Shown: positions 3,758 through 34,148 of the stretch, in pieces
Layout of the letters: each line of letters starts with the position of its first letter
Position numbering within the stretch: position 1 is the first letter of the stretch
Made by a program: the position numbers and the translations under genes
NCBI GenBank assembly: GCA_016794525.1
Contig: JAEUJY010000131.1
Location: forward strand, 1-64,000
Reading direction: 5' to 3'
DNA length: 64,000 nucleotides
Source: Myxococcales bacterium
Lineage (GTDB): Bacteria > Myxococcota_A > Polyangia > Haliangiales > Haliangiaceae
The notes under the pieces: generated by a model
Told to the model about the DNA's origin: nothing
What the model saw: only the letters and a program-made list of their open reading frames with translations
The model's database searches: none

Positions 3758-4657
3758 ATGAAGTCGACCGTCATCAATCAGCTCAAGACCATTGGGCTCC
3801 TGGGTGGCCTCACCGCGCTCCTCGTCGTGATCGGGGGCGCGCTGGCGCCCGGGATGCTCTGGCTGTTCCTCGTGCTGGCCGCGGCGCTCAACCTCGGCTC
3901 GTACTTCTTCTCCGACCGCATCGTGCTGGCGATGAACCGCGCCCATCCGGTGGCGCCCGGCAGCGACCCGGCGCTCGAGCGCATGGTGGCCGAGCTGGCC
4001 GCGCGCGCCGAGATCCCGGTGCCGCGGCTGTACGTCATCGACGATCCGGCGCCCAACGCGTTCGCCACCGGCCGCAACCCGCGGCACGGCGTCGTCGCGG
4101 TCACGACCGGCATCCGCCGCTTGCTCAGCGAGCGCGAGCTGCGCGGCGTCATCGCCCACGAGCTGGCCCACATCCACAACCGCGACATCCTGATCGCCTC
4201 GATCGCCGCGATGCTGGCCAGCGTCGTGTCGTTCGTCGCCACCGCGGTGCAGTGGGGCGCGATGTTCGGCGGGAGCCGCGACGACCGCGAGGGCGGCGGC
4301 GGCGTGCTCGGCGCGCTGGCGCTGGCGATCGTCGCGCCGATCGCCGCGACGATCATCCAGCTGGCGATCTCGCGCTCGCGCGAGTACGGCGCCGACGCCT
4401 ACGGCGCGCGCATCAGCGGCGACCCGCTGGCGCTGGCCAGCGCGCTGGCCAAGCTCGAGCGCGGCAACGCCCGCATCCCGCTGCACACCGTCGGCGACTC
4501 GCCGGCCACCGCCAGCCTGTTCATCTGCGCCCCGCTGTCGGGCGGCGGCGTGGCCAGCTGGTTCTCGACCCACCCGCCGATCCCCGAGCGCATCCGCCGC
4601 CTCGAGGCGATGGCCGACGATCTGGCGCCGCGGCGCGGCCGGCGGTTCGCGGCCTGA
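3758..4657 (+). CDS. htpX: HtpX-type M48 membrane zinc metalloprotease
   Basis: 299 residues. Two N-terminal membrane segments (about 9-28 and 31-52) precede the catalytic domain. The zinc motif HELAH is at 134-138, and the third-ligand Glu is in SREYGADAYG at about 209. Two further hydrophobic segments lie between (about 148-172 and 183-204). The NAFATGRNPRHG segment is also typical of HtpX. HtpX is a cytoplasmic-membrane protease that, with FtsH, degrades misfolded membrane proteins after heat or envelope stress. Size matches the family. The first in-frame ATG lies 12 codons upstream, but MKSTVINQLK is the natural family start. It is followed by a hairpin and the convergent EF-Tu gene. Confidence 0.93.
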   Translation: MKSTVINQLKTIGLLGGLTALLVVIGGALAPGMLWLFLVLAAALNLGSYFFSDRIVLAMNRAHPVAPGSDPALERMVAELAARAEIPVPRLYVIDDPAPNAFATGRNPRHGVVAVTTGIRRLLSERELRGVIAHELAHIHNRDILIASIAAMLASVVSFVATAVQWGAMFGGSRDDREGGGGVLGALALAIVAPIAATIIQLAISRSREYGADAYGARISGDPLALASALAKLERGNARIPLHTVGDSPATASLFICAPLSGGGVASWFSTHPPIPERIRRLEAMADDLAPRRGRRFAA

Positions 4658-17904: not shown

Positions 17905-17996
17905 CACCGGCGTCGAGCCGGCGCTGCTGCTGCTGCGGCGCCGCCGCCGGGGACGGCGAGGGAGGCGGAGCCGGCGGCGGCATCGGCAGCGGCGCC

Positions 17997-18110
17997 GGGG
18001 ACGGGGACGGGGACGGGGATGCCGGAGCCGGACCCGGAATCGGCGCCGGAGCCGGAGCCGGAGTCGGAGCCGGAGCCGGAGCCGGCGTCCGCGTCGGCGT
18101 CCGCGTCGGA
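17997..18110. repeat. Hexanucleotide tandem array A
   Basis: Four GGGGAC-type units at 17997-18018 (four G4 runs with 2-nt AC spacers, a G-quadruplex motif on the plus strand), then GGAGCC units and GTCCGC/GTCGGC units to about 18110, followed by GGATCCG. It fills the convergent gap between metX and the RAYT transposase. The 6-bp unit keeps all frames open, giving spurious dipeptide ORFs. Confidence 0.85.
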
Positions 18111-18145
18111 TCCGTCGTCGTCGCCGTTGCCAGCGGGCCGGTGAG

Positions 18146-18943
18146 TCACGTCAGCGGCCCCGGCACCTCCCACAGGCTCGGCGGCGGGCCGCCGCGCTTC
18201 CAGCCGCCGCGGAGGAGCCAGGTCGTCGGGCGCGCGATCGGCAGCGGCTCGTAGCCGGCGGGCCACGCGAACGGCACGCCATCGCGCTCGGCCCAGCCCG
18301 CGAAGGCGACGCCGCTGGAGTAGCGATCGACCGCCGCGCGGCGCTCGCCGAGCCCCGCGTGATCGTCGTGGTGGCGCCGCCAGTTGTTGAGCACGTAGGC
18401 CAGCGCGTGGAGCGCCTGGCGCGGCCGGGTGATCGGCGTGGCGTGGTAGCGATCGGTGAAGACGCGGCCGGTTCGCGGCGCGCCGCCGGCGATGGTGACC
18501 GCGCGGTTCAGCCGCTTCGCGGCTGAGATGCACAGCGCCCGCACGCCGTTGGCGAGCGCGCGGCGGTCGTCGGCCTCGCACAGCAGGTGGATGTGGTGCC
18601 GCTGGATCGACAGGTGCACGACGCGGAAGCCGCGGCGCCCGGCGAGGACGAGCGCGATCAGCGCGAGCCGCACGGCGGCGTAGGCCTTGCGACGGCGCAG
18701 CCGGCCGACCTCCTGGGTCACCCGCAGGACGACGTGCACCGGCAGGCGCGCGTCGTGGAACGGCCGCGTCCGGTGCGGGCCACGCGCCCGCCCCGGCAGC
18801 GCGCGCTTGCGCCCGGCGCCGCGCCGCTTGCCGCCGTGCCCGCTCGGGCTGCTCGCGGCCCGCCGCGGCGGCGCGGCTGTGCCGGGCAGGCCGAGCTGCC
18901 GAGCCTTGGATCGTCGCCGCTGCTGCCCCTTCGCCGCCGCCAT
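18146..18943 (-). CDS. REP-associated tyrosine transposase (RAYT)-like Y1 protein
   Basis: 265 residues. A very basic, low-complexity N-terminus (about 1-60: RRRSKAR, GKRRGAGRKR) precedes a Y1_Tnp-like domain: HVVLRVTQEV, the HUH-type HIH in QRHHIHLLCEADD, VFTDRYHATPI with the candidate catalytic Tyr, and AYVLNNWRRH. These are single-strand DNA transposase relatives of IS200 TnpA that usually occur as single domesticated copies next to palindromic REP elements. No inverted-repeat ends or REP palindromes are evident here; instead it lies between two hexamer arrays. Start at MAAAKGQQ; TATATT (minus strand, 18960-18955) lies 11 nt upstream. Confidence 0.8.
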   Translation of the reverse strand: MAAAKGQQRRRSKARQLGLPGTAAPPRRAASSPSGHGGKRRGAGRKRALPGRARGPHRTRPFHDARLPVHVVLRVTQEVGRLRRRKAYAAVRLALIALVLAGRRGFRVVHLSIQRHHIHLLCEADDRRALANGVRALCISAAKRLNRAVTIAGGAPRTGRVFTDRYHATPITRPRQALHALAYVLNNWRRHHDDHAGLGERRAAVDRYSSGVAFAGWAERDGVPFAWPAGYEPLPIARPTTWLLRGGWKRGGPPPSLWEVPGPLT

Positions 18944-19021
18944 TTGATTGGGCGAATATAACAGCGACGACGGAGATGGCAAGGCCCGAGGATGATTCAG
19001 TGGTCGATCTTCGGCTCCGCC

Positions 19022-19279
19022 TCTCGCCCTCGCCCCGCCCTCGTCCCCGCCTCCGTCCCCGTCCCCGTCCCCGTCCCCGTCCCCGTTCCCGTCTCCGTCC
19101 CCGTCTCCGTCCCCGTCTCCGTCTCCGTCCCGTTCCCGTCTCCGTCCCCGGTTCCGGCTCCGACTCCGGTCACGGTCACGGTCACGGTCACGGTCGCGGT
19201 CGCGGTCGCGGTCACGGTCGCGGTCGCGGTCGCGGTCGCGGTCACGGTCGCGGTCGCGGTCACGGTCGCGGTCGCGGTC
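19022..19279. repeat. Hexanucleotide tandem array B (two-block)
   Basis: About 258 bp. The first block (19022-19160) is CCCGTC/CTCCGTC-type units; read on the minus strand it contains five consecutive GGGGAC units. The second block (about 19168-19279) is CGGTCA and CGGTCG units, about 18 copies. The array ends exactly at the stop codon of the LRR gene (TGA, minus, 19282-19280). Its other end lies behind the RAYT promoter. It occupies nearly the whole 336-bp gene-free stretch 18944-19279. Confidence 0.9.
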
Positions 19280-21232
19280 TCACTTCGCGAGCTCGATCCC
19301 TGGCAGCGCCTTCGCCGCCTCCTTCGCCGCGATCCGGTTGCCCTGCAGGTCGACCCACCGCAGCGCCTTGAATCCGCGCAGCACCGGCAGCACCGCGCGG
19401 TCGAGGCCGAGCGACGCCAGCCCGACCTCCCGCAGCCGCGGCAGCGCCTGCAGCGCCGCGATCCCGGCCACCTCGACCCGCGTCGCCGACAGCCCCAGCG
19501 TCGTCAGCGCGCGCAGCTGCACCAGCGGCGCGGTCGCCGCCACCGCCGTCCCGCCGAGGTCGAGCACCCGCAGCCGCGGCGCGGTCACCAGCTTCGCCGC
19601 GGCGACGTCGTCGACGTCCAGCCCGAGCAGCGACAGGCTGCGCAGCCGCGGCCAGCCCGCCAGCCGATCGACGATCGCCGCGCTGATCCTCGTCTCGCCG
19701 ACCGTCAGCTCCTCGAGCGGCATCGCCGCCAGCGCCGGCAAGCTGACATCCGAGATCTCGGTGCCCGCCGCGTGCAGCGTCGTCAGCCGCGCCTGCGCCA
19801 CCGCCGCGATCACCGCGTCCGACGATCGCGTGCGATCGACGTACAGCCGCGTGAGCGCCCCCAGCGGCGCCAGCGCGACCAGCGCGTCGGGCGGCAGCGG
19901 GGTCTCGCCGAGATCGAGCGTGGTCAGCGCGGTCAGCCGCGCGATCCGCGCGACCGTCGCGGCGCCGACGTTGTCGCGGCGCAGCCCGAGCGCCACCAGC
20001 GCCGGCGTGCGATCGAGCAGCGCCAGGCCGTCGTCGGTGACCTTGGTCCGCGCGAGGTACAGCTCGCGCAGCGCCGGCGGGCTCGCGCCGGCCAGCGCGC
20101 GATCGCCGACCGCGGTGTCGTCGAGGCGCAGCATCGTCAGCGCCGGCAGCGCCAGCAGCGCCGCGGCCGCGCCGTCGTCGACCCGGGTCGCGCTCAGGTC
20201 GACGCTCTCGAGCGTGGCCAGGTTGGCCAGCGCCGCCGCCGCCGCGGCGCTGATCCGGGTCTCGGCCAGATCGAGATCGCGCAGCGCCGGCAACGCCAGC
20301 ACCTGCCGCGCCGTGGCGTCGCCGACCTTCGTGCCGCCGAGCGCGACCTCCGTGAGCCCGACCGCGGTGCTCAGCCACGTCAGGCTGGCGTCGTCGACGT
20401 CTTGATCGCCGAGATCCAGCCGGACCAGCGTCGGCGCGAGCGGCGCCAGCGCCGCCGCGGCGCGCCCGACCTGGGTGCGGGCGAGGCGCAGCTCGATCAG
20501 CGGGGCGCCGGCCACCGCCGCCGCGGCGCGCGGCCCGACCGTCGTCCCCGACAGGTCGAGCTGCTCGAGGTGCGTCGCGGTCGCCAGCGCCGCGCCGCCG
20601 GCGTCGGTGACCGCGGTGTCGGCCAGCAGCAGCGAGGTCAGGCCCGGCACCGCCGCGGCCGCCGCGATCGTGCGATCGCCGACGCCGGTAGCGCGCAGGT
20701 CGAGCACCCGCAGCGCCGGCAGCTGCGCGACCAGCGCCGCCGCGTCGGCATCGGTCACCTCGGTGCCGGCCAGGCCGAGCAGCGCGAGCTCGCGCGCGCT
20801 GGCCAGCTCGGCGATCGCCGGCGGCGCCAGCGACGCGCCGGCCAGGTCGAGGTAGCGGAGCGGCAGCAGCCGCGCCAGCGCCTCGACGTCCTCGACGCCG
20901 ACCGGGTGATCGCGGAGCGCCAGCCCGGCGACGCGGTGGGCGACCAGCTCGTCGGTCAGCGCCCACCACGCGTCGCGATCGGCCGGCCACGTCACCGGCT
21001 CGACGAGGTACGGCTCCGCCGGCAGCCCGGCGAGGCCGGGGAGTCGCCCCAGCTCGATCAGGCCCTCGGCGCGCCACTGGTAGACGCGCAGCGGCACCGG
21101 CCACCTCGGCGGCGCGGGTGGCGTCGGCGCGACGGCGGCGGGCGGCGGGTTGGGCGCGACCGGCGGCGCCGGGTGGCACCCCACCAGCGCGGCCGCGAGC
21201 GCCGCGGCGCGCATCGTTCGAGCGATCATCAT
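19280..21232 (-). CDS. Leucine-rich-repeat lipoprotein
   Basis: 650 residues. MMIARTMRAAALAAALVGC is a lipoprotein signal (lipobox LVGC), then a Pro/Ala-rich spacer (about 20-55). From about 120 to 640 lie some 18-20 leucine-rich repeats of about 23-24 residues, with the recurrent pattern LxxLxLxxTxVxDxxxxxLxxL (for example LRVLDLRATGVGDRTIAA), a ribonuclease-inhibitor/GALA-like type. LRR solenoids bind proteins; in predatory or social myxobacteria they are often surface adhesins, but no partner can be named. The ATG choice among 21232, 21229 and 21214 is uncertain. Array B abuts the stop codon. Confidence 0.85.
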   Translation of the reverse strand: MMIARTMRAAALAAALVGCHPAPPVAPNPPPAAVAPTPPAPPRWPVPLRVYQWRAEGLIELGRLPGLAGLPAEPYLVEPVTWPADRDAWWALTDELVAHRVAGLALRDHPVGVEDVEALARLLPLRYLDLAGASLAPPAIAELASARELALLGLAGTEVTDADAAALVAQLPALRVLDLRATGVGDRTIAAAAAVPGLTSLLLADTAVTDAGGAALATATHLEQLDLSGTTVGPRAAAAVAGAPLIELRLARTQVGRAAAALAPLAPTLVRLDLGDQDVDDASLTWLSTAVGLTEVALGGTKVGDATARQVLALPALRDLDLAETRISAAAAAALANLATLESVDLSATRVDDGAAAALLALPALTMLRLDDTAVGDRALAGASPPALRELYLARTKVTDDGLALLDRTPALVALGLRRDNVGAATVARIARLTALTTLDLGETPLPPDALVALAPLGALTRLYVDRTRSSDAVIAAVAQARLTTLHAAGTEISDVSLPALAAMPLEELTVGETRISAAIVDRLAGWPRLRSLSLLGLDVDDVAAAKLVTAPRLRVLDLGGTAVAATAPLVQLRALTTLGLSATRVEVAGIAALQALPRLREVGLASLGLDRAVLPVLRGFKALRWVDLQGNRIAAKEAAKALPGIELAK

Positions 21233-29041: not shown

Positions 29042-30463
<1,422 letters not shown>

Positions 30464-30464
30464 G

Positions 30465-30596
30465 CGGGAGGCGGGGACGGGACGGGGACGGGGACGGGAT
30501 CGGAGACGGGGACGGGGACGGGATCGGAGACGGGCACGGGCACGGGCACGGGCACGGGCACGGAGACGGGGACGGGATCGGGATCCGGATCTCGGG
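30465..30596. repeat. Hexanucleotide tandem array C
   Basis: Units of GGGGAC, GGGATC/GGAGAC and GGGCAC (five in a row around 30530-30560), ending GGGATCCGGATC. It fills the entire 136-bp convergent gap: it begins 1 nt after the boxB stop and ends about 4 nt before the histidine-kinase stop. The plus strand carries several four-G runs with 2-nt spacers, a potential G-quadruplex. Confidence 0.88.
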
Positions 30597-30599
30597 GCC

Positions 30600-32450
30600 T
30601 CAGGCCGCCGGCAGGCGCAGCACTAGCTCGGCGCCCGGGCTGACGGTGCGCGGGATCAGCCCGCCGCCCATCGCGGCCGCGAGCGCGCTCGACAGCGCGA
30701 GGCCGAGGCCGAGGCCCGGCGGCGCGTCGTCGCCGGCGGCGCGGCGGAACGCCTGGAAGCGGCCGCGGCGCAGCGCCGCCGGCAGGCCGGGCCCGCGATC
30801 GCGCACGGCGATCTCGACCGCGCCGTCGACCTCGGCGACGGTCACGGTGATCGTGCGATCGGCGGCGCCGCGGGCGTACTTCTCGGCGTTGTCGAGCAGG
30901 TTGCCGACGATGCGCGCGACGGCGTCACGATCGAGGCGCGCGGTCGCCGCGGCGGGCGCGACCAGCTCGACGGTGGCGCCGGCGCGCTCGAGCCCGGGCC
31001 GCGCGCGCTCGATCGCGTCGGCGACCGCGGCCACCGCGTCGCCGAGCTCGGGGCGCACCGCCAGCGCGCCGCGCTCGAGCTGCGACACGCCCATCACGTT
31101 GGCCACCACCCGGCCCAGGCGCGCGGCCTCGACCGAGATGCGGTGCGCGTAGTCCTTGTGCTTGGCCGGATCGCCGAGCTCGTCGGCCAGCATGTCGCCG
31201 TAGAGCTGGATGCCGGCCAGCGGCGTGCGCAGCTCGTGGGCCGCCGCGGCGGCGAAGCGCGCGCGCTCCTGGGCCAGGCGCTCGCTGCGCGCGGTGACGC
31301 CGACCACCAGCAGGCCGCACAGCACCGCCATCACCGCGACCGGCACGAACTTGATCAAGAAGTCGCCGCGGCGCAGCGCGGCCACGTCGCCCAGGTTCGC
31401 CAGCGCCGCGTCGACGTCGATCTGCACCGACCACGGGGCGCCGACCAGCCCCAGCGGCGTGCCGCCCGCGTCGACCAGCGTCGGCGGCGACGCGACGCGA
31501 TCGGCAGGGCGCGTCGGCGCCTGCGCGGCGAGCCACGCCGCGACCTGCTCGCGCTGCACCACCAGGCCCTGGGTGCGCGCGCCGTCGGGCGTGATCACCT
31601 GGCGCACCGCCACCAGCGCCCGCGCGCCGGCGATCGTCGTCGACGTCCACACCAGCGGCGCCACCGTGATCACCACCGGCGGCGCCGGGGTCACCTTGCG
31701 CGGCGCGCGCGGCGCCCGCGGCGGTGGCGGCACGTCGGGCACCGGCGGCGGCGCCTTGGTCGCGGGCGCGCGCCGGGTCTGCGCGAAGATCTGGTTGGTC
31801 ATCTGGTTCTGGGCGTAGGCCTCGGGCGGCAGCTCGATGGTCTGGACGCTCGGCTCCTGCATCGGCATCTGCATCTGCACGTCGCCGGCCTGGTTGCCCA
31901 GCGCCGCGTTCGCGACCTGGCGCCGCGTCGGCGCGACCGCGACCTGGACCGGCTCGGCGGCGACCCGGACCGCGCCGCGCGCAGCGACGGCGGTGAGCTC
32001 GTCCTTGACCGCCAGCACCCCGGCCAGCGCCGGTCGATCGGGCGCGATCGACTGCACCGTCTCGGGGAGCTCGTCGTTGATGCTGGGCGACGACACCGCG
32101 CCGCCCTCGTCGATCTGGAAGTGCAGCGCCACCAGCGCGTCGGCGGGGCCGGGCGCCAGCGGCGACGGCGTCACCGCCAGACCCTCGCTGGCGCCGGCGG
32201 GATCGTGGAAGAGGTTCTGGTAGTGCAGGTACGGCCGCGCGCTCTCGGCGATCCGCAGCGCCTCGAGCCGCGCGGTCACGGCCGCCGCCGCCGCGACCTC
32301 GGCGTCGTGGGCGGCGCTCCGCTGCGCGGCGATCGCGGCGGCCACCTGGCCGTCGACCTCGCGCATGCCGGCGCGGTACCAGCCGAGCAGCACGATCGCG
32401 ATCGCGCCGCCGACCAGCGCCGCGACGATCGCGGTGCGCCCGCCGCTCAT
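30600..32450 (-). CDS. Sensor histidine kinase with large extracytoplasmic domain
   Basis: 616 residues. Membrane span at about 7-24, a very long periplasmic region (about 30-370), a second span at about 375-393, then HisKA with the phospho-acceptor in AAAAHELRTPLAG (about 405) and an HATPase domain with NLLDNAEKYA and GLGLGLALS. The periplasmic region contains a Met/Gln-rich stretch (QMQMPMQEPS, around 205-215) and a Pro-rich stretch (around 240-265), neither typical of known sensors. Its signal is unknown. The ATG overlaps the response-regulator stop (ATGA), so the pair is translationally coupled. Confidence 0.88.
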   Translation of the reverse strand: MSGGRTAIVAALVGGAIAIVLLGWYRAGMREVDGQVAAAIAAQRSAAHDAEVAAAAAVTARLEALRIAESARPYLHYQNLFHDPAGASEGLAVTPSPLAPGPADALVALHFQIDEGGAVSSPSINDELPETVQSIAPDRPALAGVLAVKDELTAVAARGAVRVAAEPVQVAVAPTRRQVANAALGNQAGDVQMQMPMQEPSVQTIELPPEAYAQNQMTNQIFAQTRRAPATKAPPPVPDVPPPPRAPRAPRKVTPAPPVVITVAPLVWTSTTIAGARALVAVRQVITPDGARTQGLVVQREQVAAWLAAQAPTRPADRVASPPTLVDAGGTPLGLVGAPWSVQIDVDAALANLGDVAALRRGDFLIKFVPVAVMAVLCGLLVVGVTARSERLAQERARFAAAAAHELRTPLAGIQLYGDMLADELGDPAKHKDYAHRISVEAARLGRVVANVMGVSQLERGALAVRPELGDAVAAVADAIERARPGLERAGATVELVAPAAATARLDRDAVARIVGNLLDNAEKYARGAADRTITVTVAEVDGAVEIAVRDRGPGLPAALRRGRFQAFRRAAGDDAPPGLGLGLALSSALAAAMGGGLIPRTVSPGAELVLRLPAA

Positions 32451-33124: not shown

Positions 33125-33180
33125 GCCCCCAGTGTGCCACCTCCGCCACCCCGCCGTGTCAGCGCCGTGTAAGGGCCGCC

Positions 33181-33350
33181 CCCCGTGCCCGTCCCCGTGC
33201 CCGTGCCCGTGCCCGATTCCCGTCCACGATTCCCGTCCCCGATTCCCGGTCGCGGTCACGGTCGCGGTCACGGTCGCGGTCGCGGTCGCGGCCACGGTCA
33301 CGGTCGCGGTCGCGGTCGCGGTCACGGTCACGGATCCGGATCCCGTCACC
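33181..33350. repeat. Hexanucleotide tandem array D (two-block)
   Basis: CCCGTG/CCCGTC/CCCGATT units (33181-33246) followed by CGGTCG and CGGTCA units (about 33247-33330), then GGATCCGGATCCCG. The block order (CCCGTN then GGTCRC) matches array B, and the GGATCCGGAT motif matches array C. It lies upstream of the response regulator rather than at a convergent junction. Confidence 0.87.
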
Positions 33351-33507
33351 GTCCCCGTCGGCCGAAAGCGGTGCGCGAATCGCATCGGCGATCCTCGCCG
33401 CATCGCTTTCCGCCGCGGGTGCACACTCCGCGAGCCTTCACGCGCACCGCGCTCGACACGCAGCGACCACCGCCGCCTCACCGCGCGCAGGTCGCGTCTC
33501 GCACGCC

Positions 33508-33652
33508 GGCTCCTTGGGTGTGGCTCACCCTGCGCGCCCGTCGCGCAGCGGGCCGCGCCCACGACCCGGCGGGGACAGTGCCCATGGCTGGTCGTGGGCA
33601 CGCCCCGTGCGCTCCAGGGCGCGTGGCGGGTGAGAGCCACACCCAAGGAGCC
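33508..33652 (+). ncRNA. 145-nt multibranched inverted-repeat element containing a Shine-Dalgarno
   Basis: Outer arms 33508-33526 and 33634-33652 pair perfectly over 19 bp; ACCC (33527-33530) with GGGT (33628-33631) extends the stem past a 2-nt bulge. Inside are three hairpins: 33531-33536 with 33542-33547 (6 bp, 5-nt loop), 33557-33566 with 33590-33599 (10 bp, 23-nt loop) and 33600-33606 with 33617-33624 (7 bp, one bulge). The last two compete for base 33599 only at the edge. The AAGGAG before the GTG at 33657 lies in the 3' outer arm (33645-33650), so folding would hide it. It could be a cis-regulatory RNA or a MITE-like DNA element; no target duplication is seen. Confidence 0.5.
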
Positions 33653-33656
33653 CGTC

Positions 33657-34148
33657 GTGTTCGAAGCCCTGACCATCGCCCGTGAGTTCATCGTCGCCGT
33701 CCGCCCGCTCATCGCCGAGATCGAGCTCCGCGACAACAACCTCGCCGATCAGCTGCGCCGCGCCGCGACCAGCGCCGCGCTCAACACCGCCGAGGGCGGC
33801 CGCCGCGACGGCCACGATCGCGCCGCCCGTTACCGCATCGCCGCCGGCGAGTGCGCCGAGGCCGCCACCGCCGTCCAGGTCGCCGTCGAGCCCGTGCCCG
33901 TGCCCGTGTCCGTGCCCGATCCCGTCTCCGTCTCCGTCCCCATCCCCGTCCTCCCCGTGCCCGTCCCGCTCACCACGGCGTGTCGTGATAGTCCTTCAAG
34001 AACCGACCCCACAGGTGCTTGCCGCTGGCATGCCCGGCGAACACCGGGTCGAGCACGCGCGCCGCACCGTCGACGATGTCGAGCGGCGGGTGGAAGCCGT
34101 GCACCGACGTCTTCATCTTGGCGATCGCCACGGGGTCCTCGTCGGTGA
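33657..34148 (+). pseudogene. Four-helix-bundle (S23/IVS-type) protein gene, C-terminus overrun by a hexamer array
   Basis: GTG start 7 nt after AAGGAG. Residues 1-75 match the four-helix-bundle family: FEALTIAREFIVAVRPLI, NNLADQLRRAATSAALNTAEG and RYRIAAGECAEAATAVQVAV. The family is usually about 115-125 residues. Here, from about residue 78, the frame enters hexamer array E and encodes PVPVPVSVPDPVSVSVP-type dipeptides. It then runs 179 bp antisense through the SDR gene to 34148 (163 residues). The last helix and natural stop are lost, so the gene is probably broken or extended. Family members occur in 23S rRNA intervening sequences and, as Avd, beside diversity-generating retroelements; neither context exists here. 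Confidence 0.65.
33890..33967. repeat. Hexanucleotide tandem array E, inside a reading frame
   Basis: CCCGTG, CCGTGT, CCCGAT, CCGTCT and CCCGTC/CCCATC units. It begins within the four-helix-bundle coding sequence and ends just before the SDR stop (minus strand, 33972-33970). It is another convergent junction, here with the array replacing the end of one gene. Confidence 0.85.

Follow-up and report, generated by a model that had tools for sequence, protein, structure and literature searches.

A palindromic leader hairpin over the ribosome-binding site of a truncated PF05635 gene probably belongs to a selfish, IVS-like half-cassette outside rRNA genes

The nearest described kind of element to the one reported here is the rRNA intervening sequence (IVS) (PMC4990558). 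The IVS of 23S rRNA genes is a selfish element that encodes S23p/IVP, a protein of family PF05635 without known function (PMC4990558), and its ORF is tied to a long stem-loop. A member of the family, XCC0516 (PDB 2GSC), forms pentamers of four-helix-bundle subunits according to Lin et al. 2006 (cited in PMC4990558 and PMC10053308), and the DGR protein Avd, which serves retroelements, has been reported as a PF05635 homologue (PMC10053308). Dispersed arrays of degenerate 7-bp units, some of them inverted, have been described in Xanthomonas and Nostoc (GGGAATC, GGGGA(T/C)T; PMC4692102). The terms 'S23' and 'four-helix' are absent from the text of that paper; a further likeness is that the solved PF05635 structure, 2GSC, comes from Xanthomonas campestris. 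Searches of the open-access literature gave no account of tandem arrays that contain PF05635 genes, which is weak and limited evidence of novelty, and none of the origin of bacterial 6–9-bp arrays.

In this study, we analysed a stretch of 64,000 nucleotides from a Myxococcales bacterium (contig JAEUJY010000131.1), hereafter the window, in which an inverted repeat of 145 bp (33508–33652, + strand) precedes a PF05635 gene. Its fold had an energy of −117.1 kcal/mol compared with −77.1 (SD 4.1) in dinucleotide shuffles (z −9.7), and none of 200 shuffles folded as well. The covariance model of the hairpin family gave nothing below E 0.8 in an 800 kb background of the window genome (G000) and Kofleriaceae bacterium Gw_SlAct_bin_340 (G006). 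These results agreed with the earlier note, made from the sequence alone, that a real 145-nt structure stands here and is unlikely to be due to chance, and a chance palindrome was dismissed on the same grounds. The outer stem was seen in the fold as had been claimed, with 19 bp of perfect pairing, then a bulge and four further pairs. The Shine-Dalgarno (SD) sequence AAGGAG (33645–33650, +) lies within the 3' arm and is fully paired with the anti-Shine-Dalgarno sequence CTCCTT (33510–33515, +) of the 5' arm in both the MFE and the consensus structure, and the hairpin ends 4 nt ahead of the GTG start codon at 33657; both points had been read correctly. On the other hand, the multibranched shape with three internal hairpins was not borne out. 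The MFE, the centroid and the ten-sequence consensus all gave a single hairpin without branches, interrupted by internal loops and mismatches; the model has no branch point, and the multibranched structure was dismissed. A scan of the window against Rfam at the gathering threshold gave no match, neither to a known structured RNA or riboswitch nor to rRNA.

The ORF behind the hairpin matched PF05635 (23S_rRNA_IVP, E 1.5e-9), which confirmed the proposal of a four-helix-bundle gene, and a sequence match to PDB 2GSC (E 1.2e-14), and likewise to 2RLD, gives the fold. The PF05635 match of the window ORF ends at profile position 78 of 106, while that of the complete copy on C22 of the same genome reaches 104. 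After codon 76 the frame enters a GTGCCC array, a truncation that the earlier note had missed, and the ORF (33657–33884, +; domain to 33887) retains its GTG start and 76 codons with the C-terminal part gone. This copy sits between a response regulator gene and an SDR gene, not in an rRNA gene. To the left of the hairpin are hexanucleotide arrays of CCCGTG/CCCGTC units and then GGTCGC/GGTCAC units (33179–33366; lag-6 autocorrelation over 33226–33366, with the CCCGTG start near 33179 set by eye), followed by a conserved spacer of the element common to the C22 and C142 copies of the genome (33395–33507; by eye, the start approximate). To the right, an array of GTGCCC/GTCTCC units is fused to the ORF (33873–33967; lag-6 autocorrelation). 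The window copy is a decayed half of a cassette, and its gene is probably dead. Three more hexamer arrays in the window stand without a PF05635 gene (17948–18131, 19012–19298 and 30458–30603; lag-6 autocorrelation).

The window hairpin, of the B type, was found twice more in its own genome at 95–96%, with one copy running into a contig end. The earlier note had made its reading depend on a second copy near four-helix-bundle genes, and the genome thus holds three. PF05635 gave 13 matches there, many of them no more than a few hundred bases from a contig end, the position expected of repeats that break assemblies. A second hairpin type of the same plan (CTCCGTGGTTGGGG...CCCCAACCACGGAG) stands ahead of other PF05635 genes, and in related genomes, most of the genomes compared being draft MAGs, many PF05635 matches are divergent pairs about 1 kb apart. 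The complete unit of about 2 kb consists of a hexamer array, gene A in reverse, hairpin A, a spacer, hairpin B, gene B and a hexamer array; each gene stands directly behind its own hairpin, and there is no transposase gene within the unit. Five loci of G006 (L048–L052) have 1.1–1.9 kb in common at 87–93%. Among the matches listed, the similarity of L048 and L051 beyond this stretch falls in repeat arrays, and the half-element L051 begins within 2 bp of an array end. The copies are dispersed, and their flanks are unrelated. In G078, two copies of one single-gene element with exact common ends (GGGCGCGAT...ATCGCGCCC) and 9-bp TIRs were found at different loci (L251 and L252), and no target-site duplication was visible at these two copies. 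The pN/pS among PF05635 copies was 0.28–0.59 within genomes and 0.72–0.89 between genomes, and the within-genome values suggest that the protein is under some constraint.

The cassette resembles the 23S rRNA IVS in its protein family, in its selfish character and in an ORF tied to a long stem-loop. Around single PF05635 genes the arrays were inverted in 34 cases, direct in one and unclear in seven, and such inverted arrays would pair into a stem whose loop contains the gene, as in the IVS, where the ORF lies between inverted flanks. The transcript of an IVS is excised by RNase III. Unlike the IVS, the cassette is outside rRNA, its stems are built of 6–8-bp tandem units, and in the window type both of the two genes follow a hairpin of their own, which covers the ribosome-binding site. 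The arrays of two-gene elements were direct in 11 cases, inverted in one (L087, where the hairpins themselves may cause the score) and unclear in one. In this type the gene is outside the hairpin and the arrays are direct, so that the ORF is not in the loop of inverted flanks. The differences from the rRNA IVS are thus the location, the array-built flanks, the two-gene plan and the palindromes covering the ribosome-binding site. At locus L250 (about 1845–2320), a heptamer-flanked element separates the arms of the inverted repeat (GCAATGCCGTTCACTTA / TAAGTGAGCGGCATTGC) into which it is inserted, a placement that recalls IVS insertion into rRNA hairpin loops.

Orthologous sites without the cassette were found at three loci. 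The gap between the SDR and response regulator genes holds an array, the half-cassette and an array in the window genome; it has neither array nor cassette in the congeners G003, G005 and G006, and in G002 hexamer arrays span about 500 bp there without a cassette. The full C22 cassette lies upstream of mreD, where the G006 orthologue has no array or cassette; in G002 an array is present at mreD, with another gene next to it. The G006 cassette near prfC is absent from G000, G001, G004 and G005, and in G002 an array begins directly after the same stop codon. It follows from these sites that arrays can exist where there is no cassette. An ORF beside prfC (L048, about 4250–4636; also L148, L149, L150, L151 and L152) carries an in-frame TGA whose position is identical across the six genomes (..GKG*GT.THLLVEEDD..) and is a possible selenoprotein.

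In ten hairpin copies of the two types, 92.6% of the cells were paired, and 24 of the 50 pairs and 81 cells were changed on both sides; covariation this high was reached in none of 500 shuffles. The covariance model matched the window hairpin with 117.6 bits. The earlier note had looked to such a search for compensatory changes near four-helix-bundle genes, and the model did find hairpins ahead of PF05635 genes in genera on which it had not been trained (e.g. G009, G010, G011 and G017), as well as in congeners left out of training (G001 and G005) and in named genomes. Unrelated element families, including those of G047 and a Planctomycetota MAG, also have the SD buried in the outer stem, and in Polyangium leaders the SD is partly outside the big stem. 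Such burial, together with the compensatory changes, is what would be seen if the hairpin were purely a cis-regulatory RNA, that is, a leader thermometer or autoregulatory site gating a host four-helix-bundle gene with no mobility. However, selection on transcript pairing is expected to favour G.U pairs. Over 35 palindromes, whose sequences are not independent, there were 68 G.U pairs against 77 A.C mismatches, and in the outer 22 bp of the same non-independent set 11 against 24. The lack of a G.U excess does not fit selection on RNA pairing alone. As G.U is not above A.C, the palindrome may matter as DNA, and DNA rather than RNA may be the structured molecule. The dispersed multi-copy spread with unrelated flanks and empty sites, the truncation of the window gene behind an intact hairpin and the lack of an Rfam match in the window also argue against the purely regulatory reading, which we consider decidedly unlikely. 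Of the cis-regulatory RNA proposed in the earlier note, the sequestration of the SD and the covarying pairs stood, and selection on RNA pairing found no support in the G.U counts; the hairpin may gate translation.

The hexamer arrays are themselves dispersed, with 21 in 464 kb of G000 and 29 in 400 kb of G006, the background for arrays being sampled regions of the genomes, and at many loci they stand without a PF05635 gene. Together with the arrays at the same orthologous sites in congeners, this speaks for a view in which arrays are hot spots of recombination, or products of neutral slippage, with an origin of their own, and four-helix-bundle genes are passively captured or tolerated there; the cassette may simply insert into arrays to which it is otherwise unrelated. 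Arrays are tied to PF05635 genes. With one PF05635 match taken per Myxococcota genome, nearly always the best one, 33 of 53 genomes had an array of period 5–9 at a distance of up to 330 bp from the gene, compared with two of 53 at 700–1030 bp and one of 53 in shuffled sequence. Arrays lay within 200 bp of the 3' ends of background genes in 14/171 and 18/144 cases and of PF05635 genes in 42/76, by a detector that also counts arrays overlapping the gene end and with the last set made up of genes with at least 300 bp downstream from mixed, non-randomly chosen genomes, including loci fetched for holding elements. The same association is seen with units of 7 and 8 bp in other lineages, and the strict orientation (34:1 inverted for single genes, 11:1 direct for pairs) also counts against passive capture, as does the association in those lineages. 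Moreover, the congeners G047 and G052, whose genomes match in size and completeness, have 16 and no PF05635 matches, respectively. A five-unit CNCTGN pattern had 915 matches in G047 and 16 in G052, and random samples of 400 kb each held six arrays of any 6–8-bp unit in G047 and none in G052. This one genome pair suggests that the arrays come with the element. Taking both sides together, we regard independent arrays with passive capture as unlikely.

On a further reading, the element is of the MITE or REPIN type and owes its movement to an enzyme acting in trans, either a Y1 (RAYT) transposase or a reverse transcriptase. The cassette shares with REPIN/RAYT systems and MITEs the many dispersed intergenic palindromes, its non-coding part is palindromic, Y1 transposases are abundant in G000, G010 and G011, and Avd, the point of likeness to DGRs, is a reported PF05635 homologue (PMC10053308). 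Unlike those elements, the cassette has its own PF05635 gene, several hosts have no Y1 transposase match, and the copies inspected showed no target-site duplication. Y1_Tnp gave no match in five of nine element-bearing genomes (G006, G047, G134, G078 and G132, copy-rich drafts), and the reverse transcriptase profile RVT_1 gave none in the copy-rich draft genomes G010 and G132. It shows that neither enzyme is a general helper, and both were rejected in this role. From DGRs the cassette also differs in that no template or variable repeats were recognised. Mobilisation in trans is thus very improbable. The suggestion in the earlier note of a MITE-like or IVS-like mobile element carrying the gene is well supported in its IVS-like form (dispersed copies, unrelated flanks, empty sites, PF05635, relatives between inverted arrays); a classical MITE was rejected, as the element carries a gene and the two G078 copies show no target-site duplication. 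The window itself has a Y1_Tnp match at 18392–18742 (− strand), one of 17 in the window genome, which could be a RAYT-like transposase.

Relatives of the element occur in other phyla. Inverted short repeats surround PF05635 genes on plasmids of Nostoc, Anabaena, Tolypothrix, Geminocystis, Azospirillum, Gemmatirosa and Riemerella; of the other plasmid-borne relatives, two have direct repeats (L306 and L324), three are borderline and the rest have no clear orientation. Inverted arrays were also found at PF05635 genes of a Planctomycetota MAG and an unassigned MAG. In two cyanobacterial plasmids a four-helix-bundle gene lies between cas6 and cas4, and another lies between cas10 and a Cmr3-family gene (loci L306, L315 and L308). 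A published compilation (PMC10910872) counts the 23S rRNA IVP among CRISPR-associated proteins, and such cas-gene neighbourhoods may explain this.

Taken together, we propose a selfish cassette of the IVS-like type that lies outside rRNA around PF05635 genes and spreads from array to array. The window hairpin is probably the palindromic leader of one of its two halves, and the palindrome would also keep read-through transcripts untranslated. The mobility of the cassette and the linkage of hairpins and arrays to PF05635 genes are well supported by the genome comparisons, while the transposition route and the translational gating are inferred; transposition itself was not observed. In the proposed mechanism, the four-helix-bundle protein, whose family forms pentameric rings, would bind the palindrome or the array, and the bound ring would enable the cassette to move from one array to another, either through recombination or through copying of a folded single strand. 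In IS10 and IS50, fold-back inhibition works through an inverted repeat that pairs with the ribosome-binding site, and transcripts entering from outside are not translated. The predicted pairing of the inverted repeat with the ribosome-binding site is alike here; the cassette differs in having no transposase gene and in a hairpin of 145–200 bp rather than a short terminal repeat. By this analogy, the palindrome, as it spans the ribosome-binding site, would keep transcripts reading in from outside silent, and only those starting inside the palindrome, or opened by the bound protein, would be translated. The absence of a transposase from the unit and of a target-site duplication from the two G078 copies, the lack of a G.U excess, the high pN/pS between genomes (0.72–0.89), the arrays without a gene, the Polyangium SD partly outside the stem and the draft state of most genomes count against the proposed cassette.

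More tentatively, and as a reading that we find plausible without holding it probable, PF05635 genes would mark a widespread class of mobile elements that have no transposase and by which the 6–8-bp tandem arrays of many bacteria are both made and spread. The rRNA IVSs, and perhaps the heptamer arrays of cyanobacteria and Xanthomonas, would then be special cases, with the palindrome as the substrate of the four-helix-bundle ring. The tie between PF05635 and the arrays gives both a testable function, that of a selfish cassette spreading through, or building, its own arrays without a recognised transposase. PF05635 genes between short repeats across many bacterial phyla may explain how such repeats arise.
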